A DNA stretch of 64,000 bases, taken from Leucobacter insecticola (lineage in GTDB: Bacteria > Actinomycetota > Actinomycetes > Actinomycetales > Microbacteriaceae). The number at the start of each line of letters is the position of its first letter. Position 1 is the stretch's first letter. Below, in pieces: positions 21,500 through 64,000 of this stretch. The stretch lies in contig NZ_CP049934.1 in NCBI RefSeq assembly GCF_011382965.1, positions 372,001-436,000 on the forward strand. The letters are read 5' to 3'. The notes under the pieces are model-generated. The model saw only the letters and a list, made by a program, of their open reading frames with translations, was not told the DNA's origin and did not search any database. Made by a program: the position numbers and the translations under genes.

Positions 21500-22187
21500 C
21501 GCCGCTCACCGCCGTCTCGCACCGCGGCGGAACGCTCAAGCGAATCGAGGATCGCGGCCACACCAGCCCGATACACCGTGAGGCCGTCGATCGTAAGCAG
21601 CGCCTCCCGGTGCTCGCGCACCAGCGGGTAGGGGGAAAGGTCCACAGCGCCAAAAGTACTGATCCACGGCGTCGATCCGTCGCGGGCCGCAGCCCCAAGC
21701 GCATCACCTCGTGTGCGAGAGCAGCCCCCTGCGACACCGCAAAACCAGACACCGCAGCGTACCCGCGAATCAGCGCCTCCCCCGCAAGCCCGCCCTCACT
21801 CAGAAGGCCGAGGATCAGCTCGTCGGCGGAGACGTCACCGGGCCCAACAGGATCAAGCACCGCGCCCTCAATAGCGACCGAGGGAAACTCGAGGCTGAGC
21901 TCCGCGGCCCGCTCCAGGTAGGCTTCGAGCCGCTCGCGCCAGGATCCTTCTGCGGCGAGCGCACACTCCACGGCGGTCGACTGCAGACGATCCAGAGCCG
22001 CCCGGATCAGCTCGTCGCGATTGCGAAAGTGTCGATACATCGCTGTCGCATCAACCCCCAAAGCTTCGCCGAGCCGTTTGAAGGTGGGGCGCAGCTTCGG
22101 CTCATCCCGCGCAAGCTCAAGGAGTGCATCGACGATCATTCGTTGGTCGAGGCGAGCGCGCTTTGAAGTCACCGCTGATGGTTTCAC
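21496..22187 (-). pseudogene. TetR-family regulator, single-base frameshift
   Basis: The first 168 residues are a normal TetR (helix-turn-helix KRLGEALGVDATAMYRHFRNRD). After HEVMRLG the frame turns into Arg/Trp/Cys-rich nonsense. Reading one extra G in CTTGGGG (plus-strand CCCC, 21693-21696) restores AAARDGSTPWISTFGAVDL and LTVYRAGVAAILDSLERSAA to a TGA at 21496-21498. That stop overlaps the M20 GTG start as GTGA. The healed protein is 230 residues, a normal length, so this is more likely an assembly error than a dead gene. It lies nine bases after the ligase stop, in the same operon. Confidence 0.85.
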
Positions 22188-53605: not shown

Positions 53606-55582
53606 TCAGGAGGTTAGCCTACTTGGGAGATGAACACCGATGTAGCCAATATAAAGTCGCCCGTTGAGCGGAGTGGCATCGTGAATGTGCATTCGCATGG
53701 CTTTGCCATTGTCCTGAGTGAGACGAAAGTGCGTGCCCATAAACACAAGGCCCCCTTCTTGGACTTCTTCGGGGACAGGGAAGCATCTGGGAGCGGAGAA
53801 CTTCTTGCGAGATTTGACACTACTTGATTCATCAGCGGCGAACTGCGCGGGTGTCACACTAATGCTGCGTTCCTGGATATACTTTCCAAGCCCCTGGACG
53901 CCATCTTCGTTCCCAAATTGCCGAGCATACCGCTCAAGTTCGCACGCAATCGTCCAGGCATCCCGAAGAATCAGGTCTCGAAGCTTGGCATCAGTTATAG
54001 TGCTAGCAGCCTTTCTGTCGCCTGTAAATGAAACATGCTCAAGGCTCTCAATCTGTTCAAAAAGATCATGAACCGTCTCGGGCACCGCGATAGCCAATAG
54101 GTCGTCAGCATAGCTATCGTTTGGCAAGTCCCAGTCGACTTCAGACGTTTGAAGGGCCGAGAGTTTCGCAAGTTCATTTGCGTAGTGGCTTGCGCGTTGA
54201 GCTTCGCGAGCAGCTGCATCGCGCTGTTGCCGCAAGATCTCGCCAACTTCACGGGCTTCTTCATCCTGCACAGCCAAGAGCTCATTCAGCTCGTCGTTCT
54301 CGCGTTCCAATTCAGTCTTTGCGTCGACAAGGCTTTCAAGTTGGCGACTCACGTTCTCAATGGCTTGCTTCTGCTGCTGGCTGTTTACCACCTCACTCAA
54401 GCGCCGCCGAGCGGCTTGGAACACGCTCTTTAGGCGCTCCCCAAGAGGAGTATTCCGCGAAATCCTGACTCCGAAGTCCGTAGCCGCCTGCTCGACAATA
54501 TGCTCGATTTCTTCCGGATGCACCGAATACCGGGAGGGCGAATCCTCGACGCTCTCTGACGACTCACCCTCATCAACTCGCAATAGCGTCGTCGTCAGAG
54601 GCGGAAGGGGAGGTGTGGCTTTTTCCGCCTTCCGCTTTGACATCACTACGTCGAAGAATTCGAGAGCGCGACGAGATTCAGCACGCTCAAACTCCTCATT
54701 CAGGGTTTGCAGAGCCTTCGGAAGAGCAATCTGGGCACCACTCCGCATTGCTTCGAGGTGTAACCGCCGACTGAGGTCCTTTGAAGACGACTGCCTCACT
54801 TCAGCAGCGCTAAACCACCAGTGTCTGCGAGCGTCCAAGTCGTCATTAGTGTCGAGTCCAAAATGGTAGGAATGTACGCTGCCGGGATACACACGATACC
54901 CTGGCCTAACCAAGGAATTGAATTCAGTGAATGCCTCGGGATCGAGCTTCCAGAATGTCGCAAGCCCATATAAGGGTTCAAACGACTTTTCTACGTGATC
55001 TTCGTCTTGGGCCGTCCAGGAAGTTCCGCCGGAAATGAGTGCGGGGACGACGCGGTCTTCGGCTTCAATCACCTCGTCCAAAAATTGCCCAAGATCGCCT
55101 ATTCTAACGACTCTTAGTCCCTCAGTAAACCCACTTATCCGATCCCGCGGTTCCGCCTTCAAGGCTTTGGTAAGCCGCAAAGTAAGCTTCGGCGGGCTAA
55201 AATGAGAATCATCGCGACCAGATTCGACGTCATACCAAAGCCAATTGTCTCCCCCACCTTTGCTGACAAGAACCGTGATGGTTGAAAGGTATGTGTGAGG
55301 GGCTTTTCCGGCAAGCACCCTCCATCGCGCGACATGTGAGTCGTCTAGCTCTAGCCGCTGAAACGATGCCCTGAAGTCCCCGCCAATAGCAACGAGCCTT
55401 GCCCCAAGGTCAGTAGGCAACCGCGGGGCCTCCCGGCGAGTATCCAACCACCCTTGCAAGGCTGCCCGGGCCAGTTCAAATGTCGCTTCTGGTACCCGAT
55501 CCCCTGCATCGAATCTTTGAACCACGCGGTGCTTCAGCGCCATTGACCATACCCATCTATCAGTGCCGATCCGTTGGGGCAT
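53606..55582 (-). CDS. Large coiled-coil protein of unknown function in the BREX island
   Basis: The 658-residue protein is not recognised. The N-terminal half (about residues 1-300) is globular, with LSTITVLVSKGG and WLWYDVESGRDDSHFSPPK. A charged Pro/Ser linker (about 318-345) is followed by a long coiled coil (about 385-465, with SRQLESLVDAKTELEREND). The C-terminal domain has LRDLILRDAWTIACELERYA (about 540) and ends GLVFMGTHFRLTQDNG, MHIHDATPLNGRLYIGYIGV, a small beta barrel. The ribosome binding site at 55582 is weak. It is the last gene on the BREX strand. Confidence 0.7.
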   Translation of the reverse strand: MPQRIGTDRWVWSMALKHRVVQRFDAGDRVPEATFELARAALQGWLDTRREAPRLPTDLGARLVAIGGDFRASFQRLELDDSHVARWRVLAGKAPHTYLSTITVLVSKGGGDNWLWYDVESGRDDSHFSPPKLTLRLTKALKAEPRDRISGFTEGLRVVRIGDLGQFLDEVIEAEDRVVPALISGGTSWTAQDEDHVEKSFEPLYGLATFWKLDPEAFTEFNSLVRPGYRVYPGSVHSYHFGLDTNDDLDARRHWWFSAAEVRQSSSKDLSRRLHLEAMRSGAQIALPKALQTLNEEFERAESRRALEFFDVVMSKRKAEKATPPLPPLTTTLLRVDEGESSESVEDSPSRYSVHPEEIEHIVEQAATDFGVRISRNTPLGERLKSVFQAARRRLSEVVNSQQQKQAIENVSRQLESLVDAKTELERENDELNELLAVQDEEAREVGEILRQQRDAAAREAQRASHYANELAKLSALQTSEVDWDLPNDSYADDLLAIAVPETVHDLFEQIESLEHVSFTGDRKAASTITDAKLRDLILRDAWTIACELERYARQFGNEDGVQGLGKYIQERSISVTPAQFAADESSSVKSRKKFSAPRCFPVPEEVQEGGLVFMGTHFRLTQDNGKAMRMHIHDATPLNGRLYIGYIGVHLPSRLTS

Positions 55583-55653
55583 TGAGAACCCATAAGAATC
55601 CTAGCGCCAAACCACACAGTCGGAGCCTAATGGCCCGGTCACCGAACGCCCAA

Positions 55654-55992
55654 TCATCCGCCGCATCTGCGGAAACTCTCTCGCCGTTCGTCAAGGGCCT
55701 TATCTCGAACCACCAGCAAAAATTCGCGGCTACCTAAAATAATCTCTGGGCGTTTGAGGAGTTGTTCGTTTTCTCGAGCCATGTTGCCAGACCTCCAACA
55801 TTTTCCTCTTGTCTGTGCGTGCGCATCGTCACACACACCAACAGCCTGCTCGGCATATTCGCGCTTGACTTCAAATTCGACGAGCGCGCCGTCAATACGG
55901 GCCTCGACGCCTTGCCAAGCTTTCTCCCGCGCCGAATACCAATTCCCCCTCTTCCGCTCGGCACCTGCGGAGGCAGCAACAGCTGCCCCCAT
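55654..55992 (-). CDS. Small hypothetical ORF after brxL, start uncertain
   Basis: The frame has good coding character (GAAVAASAGAERKRGNWYSA; GVEARIDGALVEFEVKREYA) and stays open upstream of the ATG at 55992 right back to the brxL stop, but has no usable start codon or ribosome binding site there. If the AAAA run at 56054-56057 (TTTT in the gene) had one more base, brxL would read straight into it. It may therefore be a C-terminal extension of BrxL, a coupled small gene, or a remnant. Confidence 0.4.
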   Translation of the reverse strand: MGAAVAASAGAERKRGNWYSAREKAWQGVEARIDGALVEFEVKREYAEQAVGVCDDAHAQTRGKCWRSGNMARENEQLLKRPEIILGSREFLLVVRDKALDERRESFRRCGG

Positions 55993-56051
55993 TGAGGCAA
56001 GAGCTTTTGGGTGTGCCCTCGCAAGTTTCTGGACGGCGTGTAGCTCCAGAT

Positions 56052-58223
56052 CTAAAATCGCGCAGCATCGTTTTCGCGAATATATGTAACGCCGAATGCG
56101 CGCACTTGCCGAAATTCTTGTCGAGTCGTGGCAAAATCCATCCAGCCCCCCTCGAATTTCTGAAATATGTCGAGGCCACGACCCAAATTAATGCGCCATC
56201 CCGTGTCTGCCGTGATCCAGCGATCATGCGCGGAGGGGTCGAATGACACCTTCAATTCAATACCGTATTGTACAGAACGGTCGTGGATATCTTTGAGCAT
56301 CTCGAGTTGCCTACCCTTAAACACCGGGTCGGGGTCTTGGCTGGTGACAAGCACAAACGTGATGTTGTCAGCGGGGTCTTTGGCTCCGGCGAGCATCGCC
56401 AGCAGCTCAACAAGGTTCCGCCCTTGGTGCGGCTGTCGCAAGTAAGGATCTCGGAGACTAATCTCGGTAGCACCCGCGAGATATGGCATCAGCAACGTTT
56501 CGAAGCTAACACCGCGCTGGTTTTCGGAGTAGTCACGTTGCCCAGCAAAAAGCGATTCGGAATCGTCTGCTTTGGTCGTGCTAGTTGCCTCGGCCACGGA
56601 AGCTACGGCCCCCAAGCGTGGTGCGCCAGTAGACGGCGCGCGATCCACTCCGCCTTCATCAGCTTGATCCCCTGCTGCCACACCAGTCGAACGATAGTAG
56701 TGCTGCGGGTATTCGTCCTCTTCGAGCGTAGTGACTGCGCACCATTCACCCGTGTTCGTTTCGTAGCCGAACTTCACCTGGGCCATGGTGTCGTCAATGC
56801 GGAGGATCTGGTCCTTAACTCGTTTGCGGCCCTCGACCGCGAACCGCAAAATCTCTTCAATTTCTTCGGGCGCCGCCTGCTCGTGAGGGTAGAGCAACTT
56901 CATAAGCCCCGAGAAGGTCTTGTGAATCGCATCGCGATCCCGAGTCGAAATATCCTTCCCGAGCGTGAAGTGTTGCTGGTAGCGGTCGGAGTAGTCGACA
57001 TTGCGCATCGACTTGAGCACCTCGGCGATGTAGTCGACGACAAAGCCGTAACCCTCGGAAAACATCTCGCCGCGTATTGTGTCGACCTCCCACCCCGGAA
57101 TGTAGAAGTGCAGGCGGTCAAGGTATGCGGGGTCGTGGTAGCTTTCGGGCAGCTCATCGAAGAGGTCTGAGTGCTTCAGCATGTACGGCACGGTGTGCGA
57201 GGTGTTGCCGACGAACACCATCGACGCTTCTGCCCCGAGCGTTTCGACACCTCGCGAGAATGACTTGTTCGCCATGTAGTTTTTCATGATGTCTACGAGG
57301 GCCTTGTCGGTGCGCTTCTTCTTGCCCGCGAACTCGTCGAAGGCGACGACGTCCCAGTACCCGACGAGACCGATGCGCCCGTTGGTGTTGTTGACGAACA
57401 GCTTCGGTACGGTCACTTCGCCGCCCGAGATGAGCATGCCGTGCGGCGAGAACTCGGAGTAAATGTGTGACTTGCCGGTGCCCTTGGGGCCGAGTTCGAC
57501 GAGGTTGTAGTTGCGTTCAACGAACGGAATCAGGCGCACAAGCTGCAGCAGCTTGGCGCGCCTGCCAAACATCTCGGGGTTGAAGCCGATCGACTGAATG
57601 AGCAGGTCGAGCCATTCGTCGGTGGTGAACTCGTAGCGCGCTGCGAGATAGCCGGCGAAATTGAAACTCGACATCTGAATGGGCTTGAGCGATGCGAGAA
57701 CCCACGGCGCGGCCTTTGGCTCGTCTGTGTGGAGGTACTCAATGTCACACAGGCACCACACCCCGCCGACAAGCAGCTTTTGGTGCGCATTCACCGTGCC
57801 GGAGTCAACGACAACACCCTTGATACCGAGGTTCACGAACTCGGCTTGGTAGACATCGTCCTTCTCGTTGAGGGTGACGCTCACGCGATCAATGATGCGG
57901 TAGCGACCCTTCTCTTTGATCTTCGACTTGACGAGCTCTGACTGGTTACGGTGTACGTAGTGCTCGGCAAGAATCAAGCGAACGGTGTCGATGCCGCTCT
58001 GGATCGTGGCCTCTTCATCTGACGCCGCATACTGCCCGAGCAGATACTCGAGTACATACGAGGGCACGATGGCGTTGCCCTTGACTGCCTTGACAAGATC
58101 CTTCCGCACGACCATCCCGGCGAAGTGCTCGTTGATTTTGCGGTCGAGTGGGGTTTGGTTTGGCTGCTGCGCTTCGACTGCCTCTTGTGCCGTCTGCCCC
58201 TGTGTTGCTTCGTCGCTGTGCAT
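56052..58223 (-). CDS. brxL: BREX protein BrxL (AAA+ ATPase), no Lon protease domain seen
   Basis: BrxL is a hexameric AAA+ protein needed for BREX phage defence. The N-terminal DNA-binding region (about 25-110) is followed by the AAA+ core: Walker A LGPKGTGKSHIYSEFSP (about residue 245), Walker B VVAFDEFAGKKK (about 300), and sensor-like VFVGNTSHTVPYML (about 342). After a linker (about 530-580) comes a phospholipase-D-like region (ISLRDPYLRQPHQGRNLVEL; GLDIFQKFEGG), similar to MIT_C, where other BrxL proteins carry a Lon domain. Starts at ATG 58223 or GTG 58229. Confidence 0.88.
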   Translation of the reverse strand: MHSDEATQGQTAQEAVEAQQPNQTPLDRKINEHFAGMVVRKDLVKAVKGNAIVPSYVLEYLLGQYAASDEEATIQSGIDTVRLILAEHYVHRNQSELVKSKIKEKGRYRIIDRVSVTLNEKDDVYQAEFVNLGIKGVVVDSGTVNAHQKLLVGGVWCLCDIEYLHTDEPKAAPWVLASLKPIQMSSFNFAGYLAARYEFTTDEWLDLLIQSIGFNPEMFGRRAKLLQLVRLIPFVERNYNLVELGPKGTGKSHIYSEFSPHGMLISGGEVTVPKLFVNNTNGRIGLVGYWDVVAFDEFAGKKKRTDKALVDIMKNYMANKSFSRGVETLGAEASMVFVGNTSHTVPYMLKHSDLFDELPESYHDPAYLDRLHFYIPGWEVDTIRGEMFSEGYGFVVDYIAEVLKSMRNVDYSDRYQQHFTLGKDISTRDRDAIHKTFSGLMKLLYPHEQAAPEEIEEILRFAVEGRKRVKDQILRIDDTMAQVKFGYETNTGEWCAVTTLEEDEYPQHYYRSTGVAAGDQADEGGVDRAPSTGAPRLGAVASVAEATSTTKADDSESLFAGQRDYSENQRGVSFETLLMPYLAGATEISLRDPYLRQPHQGRNLVELLAMLAGAKDPADNITFVLVTSQDPDPVFKGRQLEMLKDIHDRSVQYGIELKVSFDPSAHDRWITADTGWRINLGRGLDIFQKFEGGWMDFATTRQEFRQVRAFGVTYIRENDAARF

Positions 58224-58350
58224 CGTCACTTCACCCTTTCGCTGCTCCCTCGATTATGACAGCTCAACCGTTTCACAGGCCTCCGACATCGTGGCACGAC
58301 ACCTCAGCTGTAGCCGGAAGCTCGGGCGACACCTGGGCATAAACGCACTG

Positions 58351-58552
58351 AAGATCAGAGAGGCATTGTTCGCCCTCGATCATCAAGAGCGCGCCGCGGT
58401 GATTCATGAGGCCTTACAAAGCCTTGATGGCGCCCTCATTGAGCACATAACCAAGACGAGGTTGATGCGGCCGAGACACTGAGTTGCGGAGCCGCATCGA
58501 TAGTGTTGAGGGCGGCAAGTCTGAGGCGACCGAATCAATGACACCCGACTAG
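58351..58552 (+). pseudogene. Decayed addiction-module antitoxin relic
   Basis: IREALFALDHQERAAVIHEALQSLDGA reads like the conserved LxxxERxxLxxxLLxSLD region of TIGR02574-type antitoxins (quoted in two overlapping parts). After two frame changes ELRSRIDSVEGGKSEATES follows, matching the family's C-terminal RRIDxVExGxxxP region. No intact frame or start remains. It lies opposite and upstream of brxL. Confidence 0.6.
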
Positions 58553-58767
58553 CCTGTATCGGGCAGATACTTCCCGGGATGAATCAGGCACCCCTGGTGC
58601 GCAGAATGGGCGTGAGCAAGTTTCCGTTTCGAGTTGTCGGCTGCGTCGCTGAAGAAAGCCTTGTCGTGCTCGCCTACGCGCGCGCGAGACGCGAACCAGG
58701 CTACTGGGATACTCGACGCACTGACTACTTTCTAGCCTGCAGCTTATGGCGAAGGAGTGGGCGTTAA
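58531..58767 (+). pseudogene. Decayed ParE/RelE-superfamily toxin, C-terminal relic
   Basis: The frame gives APLVRRMGVSKFPFRVVGCV and LVVLAYARARREPGYW, the last two strands of a ParE/RelE toxin (family form: RRFPYxVxYRVExDxIVVLAVxHxxRxPxxW). The N-terminal half is missing or broken by stops. It directly follows the antitoxin relic in the same orientation and overlaps the 3' end of the convergent membrane-protein gene. Confidence 0.65.
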
Positions 58768-59604
58768 TGACGAAGACGGAAATAGGGTGGATACCTGGTG
58801 AATGAATGCTTCCCCCAAATCGAATGCGAGACCACTCGTAAATGCGAGCGCAAGGAGCCCCACAAAGGCGGCGACGATCCAGACACGCAAGCCAGTGGCC
58901 CATTTGTTCAGCCAGAACAGCGCAAGCCAGAACCAGCGCGGACGGCCGCCGGAAGCGATATTGACGGCCGAAATCGCCGCCAAGCAAAGCGCCATGAAGA
59001 CCAGCAGCATCAACATGCACAAACCTGCACCAATCATCTGATTCGCGACCTGCTGAAACTCCCCGTGTTTCGACTGGAGAAATGAACCTATTGCACCGTG
59101 TTTTGCGACATAAGCTCGCATTACTTCCACGGCCTCACCGTGGATTGGAGCGTTCTGCAGCCAGTAGGCATTGAACAGGCCAGCGGTCCAGAGAGCCGAG
59201 CTCAACAAGATCCGCCAAACGACAGATCTGCCATCCACGCACTTCTTCACCCAGAAGACGAGAAAAGCGACAACAGTGGCCAGGAACACAAGCGCGGAGA
59301 AGACCACCAGCCACACGGTAATTTCGCCAACGTACTCGGAGTATCTTGCAACCGCAACAATGGTGGCGATGACCAAGAGAACAATGACCCACTTTTCGTT
59401 CTCGTCGGCGATCCGCAACACCGGGAGTCGCGCATTGAGCCGCCACGGAGTTGCCCGCCTCGCGATGAGGATAGCATCGTTGAGGGAACGGTTAGTCCCT
59501 GTCCGCTTGGGCGCAGCGGCATCCGCGAACGCGGAACCCATAATGACACCGGGGACGATAAGGGCAGCACTAAGCCAGATAGAAAACAGTGTCGGTGGAT
59601 TCAC
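58744..59604 (-). CDS. Multi-pass membrane protein of unknown function
   Basis: This 286-residue protein has a signal-like first segment (residues 5-28), membrane helices at about 72-90, 93-117, 132-150, 190-215 and 235-262, and a soluble loop at about 150-188. No family is recognised. It starts at GTG, overlapping the stop of the 40-residue membrane peptide (GTGA), so it is translated with that peptide after HerA. A membrane partner would be unusual for a SIR2-HerA module and might be an effector or a sensor. Confidence 0.65.
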   Translation of the reverse strand: MNPPTLFSIWLSAALIVPGVIMGSAFADAAAPKRTGTNRSLNDAILIARRATPWRLNARLPVLRIADENEKWVIVLLVIATIVAVARYSEYVGEITVWLVVFSALVFLATVVAFLVFWVKKCVDGRSVVWRILLSSALWTAGLFNAYWLQNAPIHGEAVEVMRAYVAKHGAIGSFLQSKHGEFQQVANQMIGAGLCMLMLLVFMALCLAAISAVNIASGGRPRWFWLALFWLNKWATGLRVWIVAAFVGLLALAFTSGLAFDLGEAFIHQVSTLFPSSSLTPTPSP

Positions 59605-59723
59605 CAGTCGTCACCGCGCCCGCGTGGAACGTTGTTCAGCAAATAAGTAACGACGATGCTAACAACCATCGAAACAACACCTATGACGATGTCCCACGTA
59701 TGTTCAGAAAGAAATTCGCTCAT
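59601..59723 (-). CDS. 40-residue single-pass membrane peptide
   Basis: MSEFLSEHTWDIVIGVVSMV continues IVVTYLLNNVPRGRGDDW: one membrane helix flanked by an acidic N-terminus and a basic C-terminus. The same frame is open to a GTG at 59816 that overlaps the herA stop (GTGA), giving a 71-residue alternative. The ATG version is preferred because the extension is polar and lacks a ribosome binding site. It overlaps the next gene by four bases. Confidence 0.55.
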   Translation of the reverse strand: MSEFLSEHTWDIVIGVVSMVVSIVVTYLLNNVPRGRGDDW

Positions 59724-59812
59724 GCGCACCAGCCTGTCGTTCGGGTCTCTATATCTGTCACCGAGCACCACATCTTCTCCTACTACCTGTACTGCCTGTA
59801 ATGCTTGCCGCG

Positions 59813-61992
59813 TCACTCATCTGCATAACTGCCTTCGCCTGAATTATCTTCTCCGCCTGTCCATACAGCTTCAGCGTCGAAGCTGTCGTGTTGTCCCTGA
59901 TCGGGTTCGTGAGCGGTGGCATTTGCGAAGCCTTGCCAATCGTCAGCGATAGCCTTCCAATCCACGGTCCGCTCCACGAGCTCGTCGTTGTCATTTTTAC
60001 CTGACCAGACGTTCCAGAAGTCTGGGTCATCTGATTGAGGGCGTTGCTCTTGATTGAGCATACGCATTTCCACCGACACTGGCAGTTCTGAAGCCCAGCC
60101 AAGCAATATCGCGTTTCGTGAGGGCAACGTTGGTAGATCACGCAGAAGCCCACGAAGGTTGTCAGGAACAAGTCGCTGCACCAGGTCTTGGTCCGTGTGG
60201 TTACTTAGCCTGTGAAGCAAGAAGCTGTTGCACTGCGACAACACTGTCGGCGAGAGCTCGCTTGGTCTCTGGGAGGAGAGAACCAACCCGAGTCCGAACT
60301 TCCTGCCCTCCCGCGCGATCTTTTCGAAAATGGCGCTGCATGCATCCTGCGCACCTTGTATATCACCGTCCGCAGATCGACGTTTGATAAATGTGTGGGC
60401 CTCTTCCATAACAAGCACGGTCGGGAGGACAGCGCCGTCATTGAGTTTGCGGTAACGTTGGAGCGCTTCAAGGGTCATACGGGCGATGACTGCGGTGATG
60501 ACATGAACCGACTCTGCTGGGAGAAGTGAAAGGTCTAGTACGGTGATTACCGCACTGTCCTCCCGCGTTTCACTCCCGAAGTGATTCTCGAGCCAGCTCG
60601 CAAGAGTTAACTCCATGTCATCCCCGGCAATTTGCCGCAACTGAACATTTGATATGAGCGATCGGATCCTGGTCACCAAGAAGTCGGTAAATTGTGACAC
60701 CTTTTCCTCGACACCGAGTTGTTCAAAGTGGTCCGCGAGCGTCTCAATTCGAAATGGAAGCGGTGCGTCTTCGGAAACGCAGTCCGTAGCGATCGAACCT
60801 CCGAACTCATTGGCAATCTCGGCCAAGCACGTAATCGTGTACTTCAGATCGTTCAGCTTAAACGCTCGGAAGTACTCTCCTTTACCGCCTTCCAAGGTGT
60901 TCGCCTGCTCGTCTAAATATTTCCCTAGTCGGCCTGCCAGTATAGAGAGATTGTCCCCTTCTTCGGCGTAGTAATTGAGATCTTCGACAACTGTTCGCAT
61001 GTACTTGCCAACCATCGTCGCTTTGTCTTTGTAAAGATTCTCGGAAATATATCTCCCAAGCAGTACCATCTGGGAAGTGAGATAGCGGCGAACCTCGCGG
61101 CTACGTAACTCTGCGGTTTCAGTTCCCCCCGAGAGGCCGCTCCTGACATCTCGCAACGCTCGCTTCAACAAAGGGCGCTGTGTCGCCGCGCTCGCTTGAG
61201 CGATGGCGGCCCATTCGTCACTATTCCACAACCACGTTGGCACAACCATTTGCTGAGCGCCATCACGTGGCTCAACAGAAAATACTCGGGCGCCAAGGTC
61301 ATTGAAAGTCTTCGAGTACTCGCCGTTGGGGTCGAGCACGATAAACCGTGCATTCGGGTCTGAACCGGACTTCTTCCTAGCCGCTTCAAGTGACCACCGA
61401 ATAAGCCCCGCCACGGAACATGATTTGCCGCTGCCCGTGTTGCCAAGAACTGCCAAGTGGCGTCCAAACAATCGATCCGGGTCAATCATCACATTGGCGT
61501 CTGCGGCGAGCGGACTCGTGCCAATCTTCACGTGACGATTGTCGCCCGATTCGACTATCGCACGCAGCTGCGCCACTGTTGGTAAGACTGCAGGGTCGCC
61601 GACAGTGGGAAAGGTCAGCACCCCGCGCTTGAACGAATACGACTCATCCCCGTTTTTCCCTGTGCCAACACGCGTCAACTCGCCGAGCGGGCTCAGGCTA
61701 AGTTTGCGCATCGGGTATGGAACATCGAGCAGACCAAAGTCTTGCATCCCCTTACGCAGGGGTACCGCGACCGCTCCACAGTTACCCATTCGACTTGCCC
61801 AACAACGAAACCGACATCTGAGGGAAGAAGCAGATAGCTATTAATACGAGGAAACGTGCGTGGCATTCCTGTGTTCATTGCGATCGAATCAGGTGCCTCA
61901 ATATCGAGCATGACCTCAATCTTGTCCGGCGCCAGAAATTCGACTGATCCAATGCGCAACGAGTCCGCAAACGCCATAGGGGTGTATGTCAT
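59813..61992 (-). pseudogene. herA: HerA-type DUF87 ATPase/translocase, single-base frameshift
   Basis: HerA forms hexameric DNA translocases and assembles with SIR2 in defence complexes. The true N-terminus starts at ATG 61992 (MTYTPMAFADSLRIGSVEFL), a HAS-barrel. At CGGTACCCC-TGCG the frame breaks (plus-strand GGGG 61759-61762); one more C gives YPLRKGMQDFGLLDVPYP and a 726-residue protein. The second frame holds Walker A VLGNTGSGKSCS, LVMEEAHTFIKRR (Walker B), and SSQRPSELSPTVLSQCNSF. It starts two bases after the SIR2 stop. Confidence 0.85.
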
Positions 61993-61994
61993 GA

Positions 61995-63362
61995 TCAAGC
62001 ACCACCTTTGGTGCTCTTGCCGTTTTCATCCGTGCGAGGGTTTGGTCCGATTCGCTGCCTAAGTAGATCAGCCATCCTCCTGGAAGCAGTGTCGATCGAC
62101 GCCTTCGGCAGGTAGTGAGAGGTGAGAGGTTCAATACCCGCCAATTCTGGCCCAATCATCAGGGAGATCTGCGCCTGGCGGCCCCAATTCTCGTAAGCGT
62201 CCATAATCCGGCCAAGTTTGTCATCATGCGAAATGATCACCAAGTGCGTTGACGGAATCGTGAGCGCATCACGAATAACGCGGTTGATGTGTTCATCACC
62301 AAAACTGTACCCGTAGGTCACGAGGGTGCTATTCGGGCGAGCGACCGCCGCTGCTAGGTCCCGAAACAGCTCGACATAGGGGTACTCCGCAGTCTCCCTG
62401 TCCTTGGTTGAATTTGGGTAGATGATGAGACTATTTGCATCGGCACCTTCAAGACCTGGAGCATCGAGATACGGGGCGATGTCGCGAGCGCCGAAAGGAA
62501 GCCCCATACGTCGTATCGACTCGTCGACGTTTACCCAGTCAAGTGAACCGTGCAATTTGGTGAGTCGCGCAACTCCTTCCACAAAACGAGGTTCACCGCG
62601 AATACCCGGTGGGTTGTAGTGGAGGTCGAGATCCATGCGAGACGAACGAAAGATTGGAGCCAGTGAACCGACAAACCGGTCGAGCAAATGCAAGCCCGCG
62701 AGTTCCGCTCCAATTTCGAGCACGCGATCATAATTGGTAGTGAAGATACTCAAACGGTCGCGGCTACCAGTGCGGCTGGCAAAGCTCATCAGGAACGACA
62801 CAAGCGCATTGAAAGCCTCCGCCCTTTTGTCGTGTTCCGCCGTCGCTAGAGCCCTTTCGCCGTCAAGAACTGACTGCGCGAACTCGCGCAGCACCCCCTC
62901 CAGCTCGGTTCGCAGTCCGTCTGCACGATCGTCTTCGAGGATCTCGAGACCGCGAAGAAGCTGAGTGGCCACCCGAACCTGATCCTCAATGTTTGGCTGC
63001 TCCCGACCGGCAGCTTCGGCTGATACTTGAGCTTGAGGCTCAATCAAATTATTGAACTGAGGGAAGTCACCACCGGCCATCCCCGAGTTCGAATTTGCCT
63101 CGGCAAGGTAACTAAGCCCGACAGTGAGCCCCGAGCCAACCAAAAGATTGAGATGATCTGACTGCAACAACGCAGTCAGCCAGGGCTCAACACGTTCGCG
63201 CAAATCTCTCTTGTGAACCCTTGCGTCACTGTCATCACACCAATCCGGATTTACCGTTCCGTTGGCAGGAGTAACGTACCCTCCATCCTCCAATGTGAAC
63301 ACAAATGGTTTCGCGTCATCCCGTACCTTGAGTATGTTCACCGGTGGTGTTGAGTCGGCCAT
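61995..63362 (-). CDS. SIR2-family NADase-like defence protein
   Basis: SIR2 defence proteins degrade NAD+ when a phage is sensed. The 455-residue protein has LNLLVGSGLTVGLS (about residue 71, NAD-binding glycines), IFTTNYDRVLE (about 206, with the conserved Asn and Asp), KLHGSLDW with the catalytic His (271), and LVTYGYSFGDEHINRVI (about 347). A long helical insert lies between the first and second blocks. The ATG has AAGGAG nine bases upstream. It is 15 bases after the pglZ stop and directly before herA, so it is part of the BREX transcript. Confidence 0.88.
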   Translation of the reverse strand: MADSTPPVNILKVRDDAKPFVFTLEDGGYVTPANGTVNPDWCDDSDARVHKRDLRERVEPWLTALLQSDHLNLLVGSGLTVGLSYLAEANSNSGMAGGDFPQFNNLIEPQAQVSAEAAGREQPNIEDQVRVATQLLRGLEILEDDRADGLRTELEGVLREFAQSVLDGERALATAEHDKRAEAFNALVSFLMSFASRTGSRDRLSIFTTNYDRVLEIGAELAGLHLLDRFVGSLAPIFRSSRMDLDLHYNPPGIRGEPRFVEGVARLTKLHGSLDWVNVDESIRRMGLPFGARDIAPYLDAPGLEGADANSLIIYPNSTKDRETAEYPYVELFRDLAAAVARPNSTLVTYGYSFGDEHINRVIRDALTIPSTHLVIISHDDKLGRIMDAYENWGRQAQISLMIGPELAGIEPLTSHYLPKASIDTASRRMADLLRQRIGPNPRTDENGKSTKGGA

Positions 63363-63377
63363 TTCTAACTCCTTCGT

Positions 63378-64000
63378 CTAGAAATCAAAGTCCGTGCCGA
63401 ACGCGCGCCTCAGGGTGTAGTGCACACTCTTGTAAGTTTTCCACACCTCGGTGCCCGTGATCGGTTCTTCAAGGCGCAGCTCGACGCGCTTCTCGTTCGC
63501 CGCGTCTGCTTCTTGGGCAAGCAGCAAACGCACACTTTGAAAGCGGTCTCGGGGTTCTTCGCTACTCTGGTCAAAGACCAGTTCGACCCGGTTCGAGACC
63601 AGCTCGTCGCCGAAGTAGAGCCCCGCCCGCAGCTTCCGCTCGGGGCGCTGCGCGGTCACGGCCGCGGTTTGGTACAACTTCACAACCATCTGTCCGGTCG
63701 TGATCTTGTCGCTCTCGGGGTGTATGTCGACGTCAACAGGTGAGACGGTATCGGCGCGCACCTTCCTGATCGATACGACCGGCACGACGATCTCTTGCAG
63801 CATGGCACCCCCGTGCACAAATCGTGAGCCGGCACCCTGCTTCGCGATGCGGTGAATGGAGTTCGGGGTCAGCACATCCAAGTCACTCTCAAGCCCCACC
63901 TCAGCTGATGTGAACTTTCGAAACGCCTGGTCCTTCTTCAGTCCGCGTCCAAGCACGTAGCGCCGGTTCTTCAGCAAGATCTCATCGCCGTGTGGCTCGG
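63378..64000 (-). CDS. pglZ: BREX alkaline-phosphatase-fold protein PglZ, 3' end only
   Basis: Only the last 206 codons are in the window; the frame is open to its right edge (EPHGDEILLKNRRYVLGRGL). The core motif GSRFVHGGAMLQEIVVPVV (about nt 63782-63838) is the diagnostic end of the PglZ catalytic domain. A beta-sandwich tail (YQTAAVTAQRPERKLRAGLY; VHYTLRRAFGTDFDF) follows. PglZ works with PglX and BrxC in BREX. The upstream BREX genes (brxA, brxB, brxC, pglX) should lie beyond 64 kb. Confidence 0.85.
   Translation of the reverse strand, partial: EPHGDEILLKNRRYVLGRGLKKDQAFRKFTSAEVGLESDLDVLTPNSIHRIAKQGAGSRFVHGGAMLQEIVVPVVSIRKVRADTVSPVDVDIHPESDKITTGQMVVKLYQTAAVTAQRPERKLRAGLYFGDELVSNRVELVFDQSSEEPRDRFQSVRLLLAQEADAANEKRVELRLEEPITGTEVWKTYKSVHYTLRRAFGTDFDF

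Follow-up and report, generated by a model that had tools for sequence, protein, structure and literature searches.

The BREX operon of Leucobacter insecticola raises the question of why a SIR2-HerA pair and two genes for membrane proteins stand between its pglZ and brxL genes, and whether all of these genes form a single system. The DNA that we analyzed, here referred to as the window, is a stretch of 64,000 nucleotides (G000:C1:372001-436000) from a genome that consists of a single contig of 2,916,402 bases. The features with which this question is concerned are the following.

63378..63998, minus strand: C-terminal part of pglZ (PADLOC PglZ, 1.4e-65 for this piece)
L003:11378-13873: whole pglZ gene, 831 codons (NCBIfam BREX-1 PglZ type A, 692.8 bits against a cut-off of 270.35)
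61995..63362, minus strand: SIR2, 455 codons, a single open frame (PADLOC SIR2 [PDLC04079], 1.2e-155; Pfam SIR2_2, 4e-09)
59813..61992, minus strand: herA, split over two frames (N-terminal barrel beginning with the ATG at 61992, ATPase part as ORF 61789-59813)
59601..59723, minus strand: p40, a 40-residue single-span membrane peptide (L005 homologue, 57% over 37 residues)
58744..59604, minus strand: TM6, an orphan-family membrane protein of 286 residues that starts with GTG (family alignment)
58230..58743: relic between TM6 and brxL, in which six-frame reading shows no intact gene
56052..58229, minus strand: brxL, 725 codons from a GTG (Pfam BrxL_ATPase, 2.3e-128, BrxL_N and MIT_C; PADLOC BrxL, 1106.7 bits)

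A type 1 BREX operon and its surroundings

The gene order given in the preliminary description, with pglZ, SIR2, herA, p40, TM6, the relic and brxL following each other on the minus strand, was borne out. The spacing of 15 bases or less that it had claimed was found between pglZ and SIR2 (15 bases) and between SIR2 and herA (2 bases), but 89 bases separate the herA stop codon from the p40 ATG. The remaining genes of type 1 BREX, brxA, brxB, brxC and pglX, were to be looked for past 64 kb and are indeed present there. In the direction of transcription, this part of the operon comprises a 231-codon gene, brxA, brxB, brxC, pglX, a RhuM-family gene and a type A pglZ. One operon thus holds the type 1 gene set of brxA, brxB, brxC, pglX, pglZ (type A) and brxL, with pglX split into two frames, and the brxL product bears a C-terminal phospholipase-D-like (HKD) domain. 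The G+C content of the operon genes and the insert is 0.48 to 0.61 (0.64 for the 231-codon gene), compared with 0.633 for the window up to 52.5 kb. A scan for promoters and terminators returned sites that were no more numerous than in shuffled sequences.

Several neighboring elements were also inspected. The 231-codon gene (L004:3301-3996), which opens the BREX operon, had no match in PADLOC, NCBIfam or Pfam. Two fragments of the relic between TM6 and brxL had no match in Pfam; judged by eye from a motif, this relic may be a decayed toxin-antitoxin pair on the plus strand. On the other side of brxL, window positions 55583-56051 resemble another relic, inside which a 112-codon ORF lacks a Pfam match, and the adjoining 658-codon gene (53606-55582) showed a weak PADLOC match to NsnC (1.7e-06) and none in Pfam or NCBIfam.

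The pglZ-brxL junction in relatives

A PglZ search of 398 genomes of the family matched 21 at E ≤ 0.001, and 17 of these, the window's genome included, were kept at E < 1e-150. Four genomes with weak pglZ matches (G300, G187, G188 and G375) were excluded, as was a second weak match in G227; G222, among the 17 kept, matches PglZ in part. A second search, covering 198 genomes of the order in a sample that overlaps the first, yielded 10 matches at E ≤ 1e-100: 8 new genomes and 2 (G000 and G355) that had already been counted.

That pglZ normally lies next to brxL in type 1 BREX, as the preliminary description had stated, was confirmed for all 16 other BREX loci of the 398-genome sample, where at most 14 bases separate the two genes. 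The brxL start codon follows the pglZ stop by 6 to 14 bases in 14 of the 16; in L063, candidate brxL starts lie at or before the pglZ stop, and in L067, for which no start codon was found, the BrxL alignment begins 7 bases past it. Among the order-level loci, the PglZ and BrxL alignments are 9 to 105 bases apart in all six that were judged. No brxL was found in two of the eight new loci at this level, one of them being L095, whose sequence stops 122 bases beyond the match to pglZ. The window departs from this layout: its pglZ and brxL are separated by 5,148 bases, filled by SIR2, herA, p40, TM6 and the relic, and it is alone among the 23 loci judged in having a filled junction. Since the junction is closed in all other loci judged, we conclude that the 5,148 bases were truly inserted into a junction that is otherwise conserved.

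The SIR2-HerA pair and the frame breaks

The SIR2 motifs GSG, TTNYD and KLHGS are all present in the aligned window protein, which matches the SIR2 chain of PDB group 8j4u/8uaf (2.1e-26) and has the same catalytic N, Y, D and H residues as are named in the passages on SIR2 in PMC11263360. HerA matches the 8j4u/8uaf complex as well. Its ATPase part matches PADLOC HerA (PDLC04098; 3.6e-227) from profile position 75 and Pfam DUF87, and its N-terminal piece matches the HerA of five other loci. The pair therefore resembles SIR2-HerA (Nezha) in its two adjacent proteins, their order, the catalytic SIR2 motifs and the structural match, and it differs from such pairs elsewhere without BREX in that it lies within BREX and its herA is split in the assembly. 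Where PMC12198126 and PMC11263360 treat SIR2-HerA, it is a two-part complex with NADase activity, and Nezha is stated in PMC12409358, in the part that deals with it, to deplete NAD+.

Although it adjoins SIR2, herA is not a single open frame: in this assembly it stands in two frames, with the change placed at about 61,773 by the frame model, and single-frame homologues occur in G377 and L038-L040. A split is also seen in pglX, whose two overlapping frames (L003:18450-16432 and 16555-14864) both match PglX strongly. These breaks, together with the relic at 58230-58743, might mean that the defense island is decaying, with herA and pglX truly broken, the relic a dead gene pair and little or no protection left today. 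We regard this as unlikely, given that both halves of herA and of pglX still match their families strongly, and that a codon-based frame model run over 92 kb flagged four candidate in-gene breaks, two of them outside BREX (at 21,704 and 31,547), which makes a general cause in sequencing or assembly possible. With two of the four breaks outside BREX, the breaks may be either damage or sequencing error. Run-length errors were considered as the cause of the breaks and set aside: all four have a run of at least 4 equal bases no more than 60 bases away, yet such runs also occur in 63% of random 120-base stretches, so that proximity to a run is uninformative. Because herA and pglX both occupy two frames as assembled, the activity of both systems in this strain is uncertain.

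SIR2-HerA pairs beside BREX and elsewhere

Among the 16 other BREX loci of the family, four (G020, G366, G233 and G134) have a SIR2-HerA pair directly after brxL, with a 4-base overlap between the brxL stop and the SIR2 start in every one of them. The SIR2 proteins of these loci are 26 to 29% identical to that of the window over the aligned parts. Those of G020, G366 and G233 are 71 to 79% alike, and that of G134 is a singleton. Including the window, the BREX-linked SIR2s thus make up three subfamilies in two positions, at the pglZ-brxL junction and after brxL.

Relatives of these proteins were also found outside BREX. In a plasmid search that listed 20 of 475 matching records, four were examined; the window SIR2 is 52 to 60% identical to plasmid SIR2s of Proteus, Vibrio, Klebsiella and Xanthomonas. 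In all four records herA follows SIR2, and in the Xanthomonas plasmid record (L037) an annotated transposase gene separates two pieces of it. SIR2-HerA pairs without BREX were seen in L038, L039, L040, G377 and G461, and two relatives of the three-member SIR2 group, in G461 (81%) and G143 (59%), had no BREX match in the 19.9 kb examined. Since the SIR2 subfamilies differ and their relatives also stand alone, several kinds of SIR2-HerA have joined BREX. The pair of G377 (L079:2431-10663) is flanked by two putative relaxase/helicase-like ORFs, as judged by eye from the translation. Elsewhere, the hotspots listed in a study of ICEs (PMC7251087) include HS4 with a HerA gene and HS5 with BREX.

Counted by genome, SIR2 matches were present in 5 of the 17 BREX genomes versus 21 of the 381 others (p 0.003), and in 4 of 16 BREX genomes when the window genome was removed (p 0.013), both p values being rough, given the small counts and the relatedness of the genomes. 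SIR2-HerA of the three subfamilies was found in none of the eight new order-level BREX loci, where L094 and L097 cover little past brxL. A SIR2 search of 394 genomes of the class (E ≤ 1e-20) returned the window and G461 only, and G461 is not beside BREX.

SIR2-HerA is one of several additions to these operons. The pglX-pglZ interval holds RhuM in the window operon and YhcG/DUF1016, Shedu SduA and Schlafen AlbA_2 in three relatives, and a GmrSD gene, a GTPase, an Eco57I-like methylase or a protein kinase lies after brxL in others (L065, L067, L069 and L076). Such diverse add-ons (RhuM, YhcG/DUF1016, Shedu, Schlafen, GmrSD and kinase), as well as the occurrence of SIR2-HerA pairs without BREX, agree with a chance neighborhood, in which unrelated systems would lie side by side in a defense island with no functional link. 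This explanation appears improbable to us in view of the 4-base overlap of SIR2 with brxL in four of four relatives and of the repeated pairing with BREX by three SIR2 subfamilies. As a separate observation, L075, L076 and L077 have a similar gene right after brxL, with a 4-base overlap in two of them; the gene of L076 matches a protein kinase in Pfam, and those of L075 and L077 are similar to it at their sequence starts.

The diversity of add-ons fits the picture of auxiliary and backup effectors drawn in the relevant sections of PMC12839542. The type 1 BREX treated there has the same full gene set, extra effectors within the operon and a C-terminal HKD domain in BrxL. The auxiliary or back-up effectors that those sections name are nucleases (HNH, HKD, PD-(D/E)XK, TOPRIM/OLD, HEPN, PIN and Schlafen), whereas the add-on of the window is SIR2-HerA, sited at the pglZ-brxL junction; sir2, sirtuin, NADase and NAD gave no match in the main text of that paper. 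Searches of the open papers in PubMed Central revealed no description of SIR2-HerA as belonging to a BREX operon.

p40 and TM6, a probably separate pair

The preliminary description had proposed that the two membrane genes behind herA add a membrane-acting effector or sensor to SIR2-HerA, which would make the insert one integrated system. In its favor, the genes lie closely packed on the same strand, and one of the 4-base overlaps said to couple them to herA is real, namely, that between p40, whose stop ends at 59601, and TM6, whose GTG lies at 59604. The p40 ATG at 59723, however, is 89 bases past the herA stop, and a 4-base overlap between herA and p40 arises only if the in-frame GTG at 59816 is used as the start of a 71-codon p40. 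The frame model scores the stretch from this GTG as coding; the Microbacterium azadirachtae homologue matches only the short form of p40 (37 residues).

That homologue belongs to a second locus (L005), in which the same p40 and TM6 genes share the same 4-base overlap. Unlike in the window, their neighbors are metabolic genes on one side and a DUF4041-T5orf172 gene on the other, and queries with SIR2, HerA, PglX, PglZ and BrxL had no match within 10 kb (20.8 kb searched, E ≤ 1e-3). The p40/TM6 pair therefore exists apart from both systems. By tblastn (E ≤ 1e-3), it was detected in 1 of 34 loci, L005 itself, and thus in none of 13 other SIR2-HerA loci (the four BREX-linked ones, G377, G461, G175, G143, G023 and four plasmids, with L064 extending only about 650 bases past herA) and in none of 24 other BREX loci, four loci belonging to both groups. 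Since the pair is absent from the other SIR2-HerA loci and present in L005 without either system, a membrane effector of SIR2-HerA is not supported. SIR2-HerA is, moreover, presented as a two-component system in the passages devoted to it in PMC12198126 and PMC12409358, and we consider the integrated system very unlikely.

As had been stated beforehand, p40 and TM6 match no described family of SIR2-HerA or BREX. The window TM6 had no match in PADLOC or Pfam, and some other members showed weak matches to PHROGs or Pfam, the best at 0.0083. The six helices ascribed to TM6 are plausible, with hydropathy indicating five segments in the window protein and five or six in 11 aligned members. A TM6 profile recovered 13 proteins, the window's own among them, in the best 7,997 candidates from 5.8 billion sequences, and a single-sequence search of the same kind recovered 12. 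The profile matched only the window in the 398 family genomes, a scan of GTDB contigs, which works by short motifs, revealed one other TM6 locus, and no relatives were found in plasmids or viral contigs. Far from being widespread without SIR2-HerA, the membrane genes thus form a very rare family. When the profile was searched against solved structures, the only match, at chance level (E 0.17), was to a chain of 30 residues. An AlphaFold2 model built from 11 sequences (mean pLDDT 59.2, pTM 0.43) was too poor for a fold search, and the one match in a 198-genome genus search around G106 (49 codons, 9.7e-4) was taken as noise. G106 is a putative Microbacterium, for which the best piece in each of five handles compared showed 71 to 72% identity.

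Judged by these sequence comparisons, with one readable second locus behind the independence, p40 and TM6 would constitute a very rare two-gene cassette that is independent of SIR2-HerA. Our best guess for its role is a separate small defense or toxin-like membrane unit.

A possible back-up layer behind BREX

We consider it likely that the locus is a type 1 BREX operon with a horizontally acquired SIR2-HerA pair of the Nezha type at the pglZ-brxL junction, serving as a back-up layer, and with p40/TM6 as an independent cassette. The SIR2-HerA pair would have moved horizontally into the junction, and its placement there suggests that it is probably transcribed together with BREX. Going by the protein families, BREX would methylate the host DNA and block unmodified phage DNA; should it fail, HerA-bound SIR2 may split NAD+ and stop the infected cell, acting as a suicidal back-up. 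p40 and TM6 may have joined the same site as an independent two-gene membrane cassette. We infer that the locus is most simply read as BREX backed up by a suicide layer.

According to the results on PglZ inhibition in PMC12839542, type 1 BREX is weakened by such inhibition yet still gives some protection, and this residual protection raises the question of back-up layers. SIR2-HerA overlapping brxL by 4 bases offers a testable back-up candidate that differs in kind from the nucleases listed in the effector sections of that paper, and the p40/TM6 family is small and would lend itself as a clean target to functional screening. More tentatively, the type 1 BREX systems of the bacterial family to which the window belongs may have repeatedly adopted SIR2-HerA as a fail-safe, so that restriction would be followed by NAD+ depletion, and p40/TM6 may be an undescribed membrane module that travels by itself.
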